Positions 12,318-49,470 of a stretch of 64,000 nt of DNA are shown here, piece after piece. The DNA comes from Spiroplasma kunkelii CR2-3x (lineage in GTDB: Bacteria; Bacillota_I; Bacilli_A; Mycoplasmatales; Mycoplasmataceae), in NCBI RefSeq assembly GCF_001274875.1, contig NZ_CP010899.1:62001-126000 (forward strand), in the 5' to 3' direction. The notes under the pieces are model-generated. The model did no database searches. It saw nothing but the letters and a program-made list of their open reading frames with translations, and was not told where the DNA came from. Numbering within the stretch: the stretch's first letter is position 1; each line of letters opens with the position of its first letter. The translations under genes and the position numbers were made by a program.

Positions 12318-12482
12318 CGGTATTGTACCATAGTCATCAAAATACCATAGACAGCAACGGATTTTATTAAATCTTAATTATGTTGCCGAGGCATTATTGA
12401 GATATAGAACAATGACATGTTTTTATATTATTTAAATAATGTTTTAGGCAATTAATCCACTTGGTTAATTGCCCTTGCTTTT
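12318..12482 (+). promoter_or_regulatory. L10-type ribosomal leader with terminal hairpin
   Basis: The untranslated stretch before rplJ carries CATAGACAGCAACGG and later ATGTTGCCGAGGC, the two halves of the helix that L10(L12)4 binds in Firmicutes rplJ leaders. It ends in a hairpin AGGCAATTAA/TTAATTGCC followed by CTTGCTTTT, 24 bases before the gene, which can act as an attenuator. By family knowledge, excess L10-L12 complex would lower expression of its own operon. Confidence 0.75.
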
Positions 12483-19171: not shown

Positions 19172-19595
19172 GGGGATGTTCCGGTTTCGACAGGAATGAT
19201 CTACTAATATTGGCAGTAGTTTAGTAGACTATAATGCTACTAGGTTTGAAGAAACGCAAGCAAAAAACAAAAAGAAGACAAAATTGAAATGCCAGCTTTT
19301 ATGATGAACAATCAATTAGCAGTATCAATGTTAGCAGCTTAATTCCTCGCTGTTAGAGGATCGCTAGCCGTAATAGTAGTTAATTGTAGATTATTAACTA
19401 TTATCGTATCTCAAGTCTTAATCTAATAGAAATTCTAATTGATAATGTTAGAATTTTGAAAGTCTTATTATCTAATTATTTAATTAGTTGTCTAATCCTA
19501 TTATTAAATAATGAAAAAAAGATGATTAGACTAAACTGTAGAAGATATTAGAATGTTATTTGTGGACGCGGGTTCAATTCCCGCCATCTCCACCA
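19172..19595 (+). ncRNA. ssrA: transfer-messenger RNA
   Basis: tmRNA frees ribosomes stalled on broken mRNA and tags the products for proteolysis. The 5' end GGGGATGTTCCGGTTTCGACAG and the 3' end with T-arm GGTTCAATTCC and CATCTCCACCA pair as the tRNA-like domain. The 3' CCA is encoded. The tag frame can be read from GCAAGC near 19257: A-S-K-K-Q-K-E-D, then KIEMPAFMMNNQLAVSMLAA and TAA (19339-19341). The tag is 28 residues, much longer than the ten of E. coli, ending in the hydrophobic LAA signal recognised by Lon-type proteases in mollicutes. Confidence 0.95.
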
Positions 19596-45560: not shown

Positions 45561-46973
45561 ATGCCAAAATTAAAGCAAGAAAAAGAAATTAAAGAAATTT
45601 CTAGTTATAAATATGGTTTTAATGATGGAAATATTTCTTACTATAATACTGGGAAAGGTCTTAATGAAACAATTATTAATGAAATTTCAGATCATAAAAA
45701 TGAACCAGATTGAATGCGAGAATATCGGTTACAGTCATATCATAATTTTTTAAAAATAAAAAATCCAAGTTGAGGGCCAAACTTAGAATTTATAGATTTT
45801 GATGAGTATATTTATTATATTAAACCAACAGAACATATTGCAACAAAATGAGATGAGGTTCCTGAAAAAATTAAAAAAACCTTTGACCGGTTAGGTTTAC
45901 CAGAAGCCGAACGTGAATATTTAGCTGGAATTAAAGCTCAATATGATAGTGAGCCAGTTTATGGAAGTATGTTAAAAGAAGTTGAAGAAAAAGGAATTAT
46001 TTTTTTAGATTGTGATACCGCATTACGTCAACATCCAGCGTTATTTAAAAAATATTTTGGAACATTAGTACCAAATACAGATAATAAATATGCTGCTTTA
46101 AATGGAGCTGTTTGATCAGGTGGATCATTTATTTATGTTCCAAAGGGAGTTAAATTAGAAAAACCATTGCAGGCTTATTTCCGAATTAATTATCAGAATA
46201 GTGGTCAGTTTGAACGCACATTAATTATTGTTGATGATGATGCAGAATTACACTATATTGAAGGATGCACAGCACCAATTTATTCTCGTGATTCTTTACA
46301 TGATGCTATTGTTGAAATTTTTGTGGGAAAAAATGCAAAAATGCGTTATACAACTGTTCAAAACTGGAGTGATAATGTTTTAAATTTAGTAACAAAACGT
46401 AGCATTGTTGATGAAAATGGTCAAATGGAATGAATTGATGGTAATATTGGATCAAAAATTAATATGAAGTATCCGAGTGTTATTTTAAAAGGAAATAATA
46501 GTAAAGGACAATGTATTTCAATTGCGGTAGCAAAGGAAAATATTATTCAAGATGCTGGTTCAAAAATGATTCATTTGGGAAAAAATACTTCTTCTAAAAT
46601 TATTTCTAAATCAATGACTTTTAATGGTGGGATAGCAAACTATCGTGGGTTAGTTCATATTGGACCAAAAGCACAGTATTCAAAAGCTAGGGTTGAATGC
46701 GATACTCTAATTCTAGATGGAAAATCACATTCTGATACAATTCCTCAGAATAAAGTTTATAATAACGAATCACAAATTGAGCATGAAGCAACAGTAAGTA
46801 AAGTTTCTGAGGAACAATTATTTTATTTACAAAGTCGTGGTTTATCAGAACAAGAAGCTTTGGAAATGATTATTATGGGATTTTTAGAACCATTTACAAG
46901 AGAATTACCAATGGAATATGCAGTTGAATTAAATCAGTTAATTAAAATGGATATGGAAGGTAGTGTTGGTTAA
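45561..46973 (+). CDS. sufB: Fe-S cluster assembly protein SufB
   Basis: 470 aa main scaffold. Motifs: [48 protein letters not shown], and the C-terminal [23 protein letters not shown] codes Trp at several positions (for example 46113 and 46431). RBS AAAGGAGG. Its TAA overlaps the ATG of the folate cyclo-ligase gene. Confidence 0.96.
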
Positions 46974-47521
46974 TGATAACTCGTGCTAAACAAGAAATTC
47001 GACAAGAAAAATTGTTTGTAAGAAGCAAGATTTCATCTGAGTTATTACAGCAAAAAGAAACTCAGATTTTTAATACTTTTTTTCAACATCCTGGTGTACA
47101 AAGTAAAACAATTGCTCTTTATTATTCAATCAAAAATGAAGTTAATACTATTTTTATTATTAAGCAATTATTTGCATTAAAAATTAATGTTTTATTACCA
47201 CGAATGGAAGGTAATAATTTAAAATTTTATCATATTACCAATTTAACAACTGATTTAGAATTTAATTCACGTTTTGGTCTTTATGAACCATTAAATTCAT
47301 TGCCAATAATTGATACAGAAAAAATTGATGTTCTTGTTGTTCCAATCGTTGCTTTTGATCAAAACAATTTTCGGTTAGGATATGGGAAATGCTATTATGA
47401 TCGGTTTTTAAAAAATTATTATGATCTTGTGATTGGGTTAGCATTTATTCAATAGTTAGTGCCAACCCCTTTGCCAGTTGAAGAACACGATGTTAAAATA
47501 GAAATTATTATTAGTGTTTAA
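46973..47521 (+). pseudogene. 5-formyltetrahydrofolate cyclo-ligase with premature TAG
   Basis: The frame encodes 182 residues, with KQEIRQEKLFVRSKISSELL, VLLPRMEGNNLKFYHI and FRLGYGKCYYDRFL, typical of MTHFS (YgfA), which returns 5-formyl-THF to the folate pool. A TAG at 47453 stops it at residue 160; the in-frame rest contains PLPVEEHDVKIEIIISV, the conserved C-terminal strand region. The truncated protein may be inactive. It is coupled to sufB by a TAATG overlap. Confidence 0.75.
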
Positions 47522-47537
47522 AAATTAAGGATCCAGA

Positions 47538-47627
47538 ATGAACTTACCATTATTACGTGTTGTTAGTAAATATTGATTTAAATCATGACATACTTATTTA
47601 GTAACATTTGTTTTACAAGGTGACTAA
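47538..47627 (+). pseudogene. short N-terminal membrane protein fragment
   Basis: 29 codons, MNLPLLRVVSKYWFKSWHTY..., then TAA. Such a start resembles ABC-2 type permeases of mollicutes, but nothing follows. Confidence 0.3.
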
Positions 47628-47628
47628 T

Positions 47629-47721
47629 ATGTTTAATAGTAATGCTAGGCTAGTTAGTTTAAGTTGAAGTTTTATTTTTTTTATTTTTATTTTTGTTATT
47701 ATTTATTATAAAGATAACTAA
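47629..47721 (+). CDS. 30-aa single-span membrane peptide
   Basis: MFNSNARLVSLSW followed by one hydrophobic span (FIFFIFIFVIIYY) and KDN. It starts two bases after the previous stop. No RBS of note (AAGGTGAC, a few bases upstream). It may be a chance ORF or a remnant. Confidence 0.25.
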
Positions 47722-47764
47722 AAAATGTTGTATGATAATTTTAGACAATTTAATAAATAGTTAT

Positions 47765-47945
47765 TTAGAGTTAGGGAATTGAGTGCGAATCTTAAGCTGT
47801 CCCAGCAACTGTTATATTGACGAAATCCACATTAGCCACTGAAAGAAAAACTTTTGGGAAAGCGATTAGTGAGATGAAATTAAGCCAGTAGACCTTTCTA
47901 AATTTAATTAGTATTATTATATAACTCCTGGGTGTGAGTCATGCA
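47765..47945 (+). promoter_or_regulatory. cobalamin riboswitch
   Basis: Conserved core elements occur in the right order: AGGGAA, GTGCGAATC, GCTGTCCCAGCAACTGT (B12-box side), AGCCACTG, GGGAAAGC, GATGAAATTAAGCCAGTAGACC. A downstream hairpin, ACTC/GAGT (47924-47939), shows CTGGG in its loop (47928-47932), complementary to CCCAG at 47801-47805: the kissing loop that closes when cobalamin binds. So the aptamer looks complete. Confidence 0.85.
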
Positions 47946-47982
47946 ATTATTTTGTAAATAAATAATTTAGTGATTGTTATAT

Positions 47983-48008
47983 AAAAAGCATGTTTGGGAA
48001 TGCTTTTT
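47983..48008 (+). terminator. terminator downstream of the riboswitch
   Basis: AAAAAGCAT / ATGCTTTTT with an 8-base loop, then TTAA. It lies about 40 bases behind the aptamer and could be its transcription-control stem or simply the end of the leader transcript. Confidence 0.75.
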
Positions 48009-48109
48009 AATTTACTGCAACTATAATTAAATTGTCCATTGTTAATTTGCTAAAAAAATAATAAAATTAAAAGTAAATATTATTACTATTCCTAAGTTCT
48101 ATATTTATT

Positions 48110-48845
48110 TTTTCACCAACATTAACAACAATTTATTGTAAAAATGTTAATGAATAGTTTTCCTATTGTGAACAAAATTGAATTTATCAAATGAAGACAG
48201 AGGAAAATAAAGAATTTGCAGTTAATAAATAATAATTATTATAACCAACTGCATCAAGTACATTCCAACAAAAATATTGGTTATATCTTATTCAAAAAGC
48301 AAATATTTATCTTTATTTTATAAAAATGTTGTAAGTCTTGATGAAGAAATACAAAAATTACAGTTTGGTGATACTGCTCATATGCAAGATGTAAAGCATT
48401 TTTATGAGTCAATAACATTTACAAAAACTGATGATGATAATGTTTATATTTCTAATTCCTTTTTGACGGAAAATGCCCCTGTTAATTGCTATACAATAAT
48501 CAATGGCACAAGAAAAATGAAAAGATCTTAAAAATAGTAAAAATATGAAGCAACTAAATGACCGATTTTAAAAATAGTTTGAACAATGAGAAACAATTTG
48601 TGATTCTCATCCAGTCCAAGAAGTGGATAAAAAATAATTTGTTTGATAAAATTCTAACCGTTAGGGATGTTTTATTGCAGACGGAAATCCAGAAGGCAAT
48701 ATATAGAGTTTGAAGTAACACTGAAAATAAAATTCAAGTGGGAATGAATATTCCCATTATCCCTTGTTAGTAAAGGTTCAATTAGAGTGTCAAAAAATAA
48801 GGCTCAAAGTGTATTTCGAATAGAACTAAATTATCAAAAAGATTA
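48110..48845 (+). pseudogene. decayed protein gene behind the cobalamin riboswitch
   Basis: Fragments in changing frames: YCEQNWIYQMKTEENKEFAV near 48165-48230, FYKNVVSLDEEIQKLQFGDT ... FLTENAPVNCYTIINGT at 48277-48531, EIQKAIYRVWSNTENKIQVG near 48690 and KGSIRVSKNKAQSVFRIELN ending at 48845. Hydrophilic, N/K-rich content resembles mollicute lipoproteins, but no signal peptide survives. It would be the natural target of the riboswitch if the leader was ever functional here. Family not recognised. Confidence 0.45.
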
Positions 48846-48884
48846 AATAAATAATAGTTTTAATAAAATAAAATACCGATTACC

Positions 48885-49060
48885 CCACTGAGGTTTTTAT
48901 TTTAAAATAATTGGTGAAAATAAGGTCCAATATATTCCACCACAACTAATTCCTGCAATTAATAATACTTTTCGTGTGACTGATGTTTTGACATATTTAA
49001 CATCGTAAAATTGAAATTCTTTTAATAAAGGTTATAAAAATGCCAAAATAATTTCATAAT
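48885..49060 (-). pseudogene. membrane protein fragment
   Basis: On the minus strand a readable piece YDVKYVKTSVTRKVLLIAGI and SCGGIYWTLFSPIILK ends in a stop followed by KPQWG. It holds one hydrophobic span. Not recognised. Confidence 0.3.
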
Positions 49061-49122: not shown

Positions 49123-49470
49123 ATTAAAATATTAACATGACCAAAAATTTTAATGTTTATTGGCGCAGCTTGAATTATTATTATTGGCATTTTATTCGCT
49201 GCTGGCGTTCCAACAAAAACTTCAATTTACGGATGAGATACAAGTTGACCAGTTTTATTGCTTTTAGGAATTTTGTATATTTTAGTTCCGCTATCAGTTA
49301 AACCAGGTTTTTGATCATTATTATGAGCACTTGTCATTACTGGTTTAGCAGTAATTTTCTTAGTTGGATTTTTTGTAAAAGCAGATTATCAATCACCCTG
49401 AACGTATTTAGGAGCCATTCCTAATATTTTTATTGGAGTTGGATCATTAGGATGAATTTTTGTTCACTAG
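49123..49470 (+). CDS. 115-aa four-span membrane protein with apparent ATT start
   Basis: Clean frame, KILTWPKILMFIGAAWIIII then three more hydrophobic spans, ending SLGWIFVH. Nine or so TGA-Trp codons. The frame has no ATG, GTG or TTG near the strong RBS AAAGGAG (49106-49112); the codon at the right distance is ATT, one base from ATG. Either it initiates poorly at ATT or its start codon was lost recently. Function unknown. Confidence 0.5.

Follow-up and report, generated by a model that had tools for sequence, protein, structure and literature searches.

The window analyzed here comprises 64,000 nucleotides of the 1,463,926-base chromosome of Spiroplasma kunkelii CR2-3x. On its forward strand, a decaying cobalamin aptamer occupies positions 47726–47915, where cmscan matched the full RF00174 model (1–189) with 70.5 bits (E 2.3e-15), against a gathering score of 31.5 bits. 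This match bears out the cobalamin riboswitch proposed in the first-pass annotation and places the 5′ end of the aptamer 39 bases ahead of the start given there (47765). Upstream, on the same strand, lies what is left of an ABC-2 type permease gene (family c6; 47538–47721), recognized by alignment and by the Pfam match of its intact relative and lacking its middle part, as well as a gene at 46973–47455 that is 5-formyltetrahydrofolate cyclo-ligase-like, judged by its sequence rather than by a family scan. An in-frame stop shortens the latter to 160 aa versus 183, and it, too, may be losing function in the window. Downstream, still on the forward strand, a lipoprotein pseudogene (family c7; 48032–49056, corresponding to G000:C1:110032-111056) is broken into five pieces by stops and frameshifts, and is followed by a 105-aa membrane-protein ORF (family c10; 49153–49470). 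The earlier statement that only broken frames lie downstream holds for the one decayed gene, but the c10 ORF, the only open gene just 3′ of the pseudogene, remains open behind it, with a 2-base insertion that changes its start region. Elsewhere, the window contains a tmRNA (19172–19595, 99.9 bits) and a ribosomal protein L10 leader (12327–12434, 52.7 bits).

Synteny identifies the lost target. The riboswitch locus has orthologs in eight relatives. The gene order in relatives is sufB, folate-type cyclo-ligase, ABC-2 permease c6, riboswitch, lipoprotein c7 and small membrane protein c10. In three relatives (G004, G009 and G010), an intact c7 gene lies immediately 3′ of the riboswitch, whereas G001 and G013 have it ahead of c6, giving the order riboswitch–permease–lipoprotein. 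The lesion in c7 is partly common to Spiroplasma phoeniceum and the window, so the break predates the split of these two lineages. In Spiroplasma citri, a separate deletion fuses c6 to the aptamer and removes the 5′ flank with the −10 region.

The c7 lipoprotein is likely part of B12 uptake, because in G003 a c7 relative belongs to a riboswitch-led operon in which it follows c0 and then the CbrT-like S-component c3. Family c3 of the relatives matches 6fnp_A (E 4.5e-15), a PDB entry that we take to be the cobalamin transporter ECF-CbrT. The c0 protein has a predicted structure with pLDDT 84, and the B12-binding beta domains of intrinsic factor, transcobalamin and haptocorrin are among its best PDB matches in Foldseek (E 1e-4 to 1e-3). 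The AlphaFold model of c7 (pLDDT 55.5) was too poor for a structure search, and its sequence searches returned lipoprotein-type families only, with no noteworthy solved relative; a Pfam scan of c0 and c7 at E 0.01 gave nothing. The suggestion that the riboswitch once controlled a since-lost lipoprotein for B12 uptake is thus well supported: the remnant corresponds to a lipoprotein gene that relatives keep intact, and the G003 operon also holds a CbrT-like S-component.

Several elements of a functional riboswitch persist in the window. The loop L5 kissing partner CCCAG (47801–47805) and its complement CTGGG (47928–47932), presented in the loop of the P13 hairpin (47924–47939), are conserved among the orthologs, of which that in S. 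citri shows a G-U variant; the kissing interaction proposed earlier is thereby corroborated. The expression platform is a terminator-like hairpin with a U-run (47983–48008), which was recovered in RNA folds and is conserved in close orthologs. In this respect the earlier terminator call stands, but the hairpin is weak, with 9 bp of which just 2 are G-C pairs, and is missing from the consensus terminator scan, which demands 3 G-C pairs. By alignment with orthologs, TATGAT at 47731–47736 is a probable −10 element, and a change at 47729 has removed the TG of what would be an extended −10 ahead of it; the consensus promoter scan gave a chance-level result. In relatives, plentiful coenzyme B12 would be expected to stop transcription at this platform, judging by its terminator and by how riboswitches of this class generally behave.

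The whole-element RNA fold is no better than that of shuffled sequence (z 0.01); the evidence for a riboswitch comes from the covariance score and from orthology. A chance covariance match might be suspected in AT-rich sequence whose shuffles fold equally well, but a full-length model match at E 2e-15, orthologs with scores of up to 90 bits and the conserved kissing complement reduce this explanation to a negligible probability, and orthology refutes it. The aptamer is nevertheless not intact: at 47861, within the altered GGGAAGG core, a conserved C-G pair has become C.A, which the covariance alignment marks as non-standard and the ortholog alignment supports. Thus, the score above the gathering cut-off, the kissing complement and the terminator platform are those of an RF00174 riboswitch, but the core is altered and no intact cis-controlled gene follows, the target being a pseudogene and c10 a doubtful one. 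Judged from its sequence, the element belongs to RF00174 by descent, in degenerate rather than working form.

Lineage-specific changes, polarized by comparing the window with both S. phoeniceum P40 (G006) and G004, indicate how the element is evolving. The aptamer changed at 8 of 185 sites (4.3%) and the c7 pseudogene at 46 of 977 (4.7%; Fisher P 1.0), whereas neighbouring sufB changed at only 4 of 928 sites in codon positions 1 and 2 (P 1.4e-4 versus the aptamer) and at 4 of 425 in position 3 (P 0.0095). The aptamer therefore drifts at a neutral-like rate, like the adjacent pseudogene and about 10 times faster than codon positions 1 and 2 of sufB. With S. citri added to the comparison, the figures are 6/177 for the aptamer and 45/961 for the pseudogene (P 0.56). 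All 8 aptamer changes, among them those at 47729 and 47861, put another base in place of a G, as expected from unconstrained drift in a genome of 25% G+C. Where relatives have an intact gene, conservation is instead higher in the aptamer than in that gene (96.8% versus 89.9% between G009 and G010). With only about 185 sites and 8 changes, mild constraint on the aptamer may exist. These rates and the lost core pair make the initial description of the riboswitch as complete and well kept an overstatement.

Two proposals for a retained function can be weighed against these data. A free-standing RNA acting in trans, and kept for such a role, would be consistent with the terminator-like hairpin end and the lack of an intact gene directly 3′, its only support. 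The drift of the aptamer at pseudogene rate speaks against it, as do the loss of the promoter TG in the window, the loss of the 5′ flank and −10 in S. citri, and a fold indistinguishable from shuffles; we regard such a role as highly improbable, and it was rejected on the rate evidence. Control of something small, also proposed earlier, finds one candidate in the 105-aa ORF at 49153, although its support is weak. Here, a weakened yet working riboswitch would govern c10 in cis: the ORF is still open, it lies 3′ of the lipoprotein gene in relatives and is thus probably co-transcribed, and the terminator and kissing loop persist. However, c10 is separated from the riboswitch by 1.1 kb of untranslated remnant, carries the insertion at its start and shows raised change (7/301), while the pseudogene-like drift of the aptamer argues against cis control and neither a B12 importer nor a B12-dependent enzyme was found in the genome. 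We consider this explanation unlikely.

The genome-wide search for B12 transporters and enzymes detected none in S. kunkelii. There was no match in its genome to the B12-dependent ribonucleotide reductase NrdJ, to PF02867 (the class I/II reductase large-subunit family), to NrdD, to a CbrT-like S-component, to the adenosyltransferase BtuR or to the transcobalamin-beta-like c0 family, and no B12-binding domain. On sequence grounds, S. kunkelii would appear to be without a detectable reductase of any kind, though a monomeric-type class II enzyme might escape the models used. In another S. phoeniceum genome (G007), fragments of CbrT-like and transcobalamin-beta-like genes at C1:1028267-1028724 are the remains of a lost uptake operon.

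We conclude, with a probability of roughly 87%, that a transcription-terminating cobalamin riboswitch survives in the window only as a relic, having outlasted both B12 use and its lipoprotein target in this lineage. In B12-using relatives, the RNA sits directly 5′ of a lipoprotein gene whose operon company suggests a probable B12-uptake component. The S. kunkelii lineage has lost B12 use together with the importer, the adenosyltransferase and the class II ribonucleotide reductase; its permease and lipoprotein genes are broken, and the RNA is drifting as fast as the adjacent pseudogene. Counting against a relic are the still intact kissing loop and terminator, and an expression platform that changed less than the aptamer (2/99; small numbers).

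Across the genus, 13 of 14 genomes contain such riboswitches, with one to four in each. NrdJ is kept in eight, with a stop in its frame in G005, and PF02310 is absent from all 14, which leaves NrdJ as the only B12-dependent enzyme detected. The earlier expectation that few B12 enzymes make the aptamer surprising fits the S. kunkelii genome but not the genus, where NrdJ and riboswitches are common. Riboswitches number 2–4 in the eight NrdJ genomes versus 0–2 in the six without it (one-sided Mann-Whitney P 0.0017, for species that are not phylogenetically independent). Among B12-using relatives, they stand before the uptake genes CbrT and transcobalamin-beta-like, the B12-independent reductases NrdF-NrdI-NrdE (NrdFIE) and NrdD, and a deoxynucleoside-salvage operon. 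Other broken loci were also observed. In Spiroplasma poulsonii (G008), which has NrdJ and BtuR but no CbrT-like match, a 102.7-bit riboswitch at C1:1318295-1318489 (L051) is another orphan switch, with a 35-aa piece of a transcobalamin-beta-like gene behind it; in G005, a riboswitch at C1:136045-136173 (L082) lies 5′ of a shattered anaerobic ribonucleotide reductase gene, NrdD.

S. kunkelii retains a second riboswitch (C1:714246-714417, minus strand, 75 bits; L001/L003) approximately 400 bases 5′ of a deoD-type purine nucleoside phosphorylase gene. This gene starts the salvage operon, which also encodes a deoxynucleoside kinase, a transketolase, a KDPG-type aldolase and a nucleoside deoxyribosyltransferase. 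Of 167 sites in the second riboswitch, 2 have changed in this lineage, both of them within the CCCAGCAACU core region, against 5 of 669 in deoD. A riboswitch ahead of this operon occurs in species with and without NrdJ. Gene order suggests that the intact-looking switch set of the relatives appears to govern the acquisition of DNA building blocks, and the salvage-operon target fits the same logic as the B12-independent reductase targets. We lean towards a model in which the Spiroplasma B12 regulon serves deoxynucleotide supply: with too little B12 for NrdJ to work, uptake, B12-independent reductases and the salvage operon would be released, whereas citri-group plant pathogens would have lost B12 use and every detected reductase, leaving the salvage operon permanently on behind a ligand-less switch. 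In the papers searched, which covered few subscription journals, we found no description of this operon as a cobalamin-riboswitch target, nor any account of the system itself in Spiroplasma.

The locus captures a lineage in the course of losing a vitamin, in which the sensors outlive the importer, the enzyme and the target, and in which pseudogenes provide a clock for the decay of these sensors. The element itself is probably a fossil, and the surrounding regulon, with a salvage operon indicated by gene order as a B12 riboswitch target, is of greater interest. If the model is true, several plant-pathogenic spiroplasmas lack any means of ribonucleotide reduction and must take all their deoxynucleosides from the host. 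A survey of 17 Mollicutes listed no cobalt transporters and reported nickel and cobalt use as lost in most (PMC2667541); our findings point to B12 use in this group.

Compared with known systems, the window element shares with RF00174 riboswitches the full-length covariance match, the CCCAG/CTGGG pair and a terminator-type platform, but differs in its lost core C-G pair and promoter TG, its pseudogene target and a genome without detected B12 machinery. Among the uptake proteins, family c3 of the relatives resembles the S-component of ECF-CbrT (6fnp) and has no counterpart in the S. kunkelii genome. The predicted structure of c0 resembles the DUF4430-like beta domain of transcobalamin and intrinsic factor; unlike these, c0 is a membrane-anchored bacterial protein, and it is likewise absent from S. 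kunkelii. Where NrdJ exists, B12 riboswitches have been proposed to repress B12-independent isozymes, e.g., NrdDG in delta-proteobacteria (PMC545781). The Spiroplasma relatives are similar in having a riboswitch before NrdFIE or NrdD where NrdJ also occurs, but they add one before the salvage operon, which is not an isozyme.
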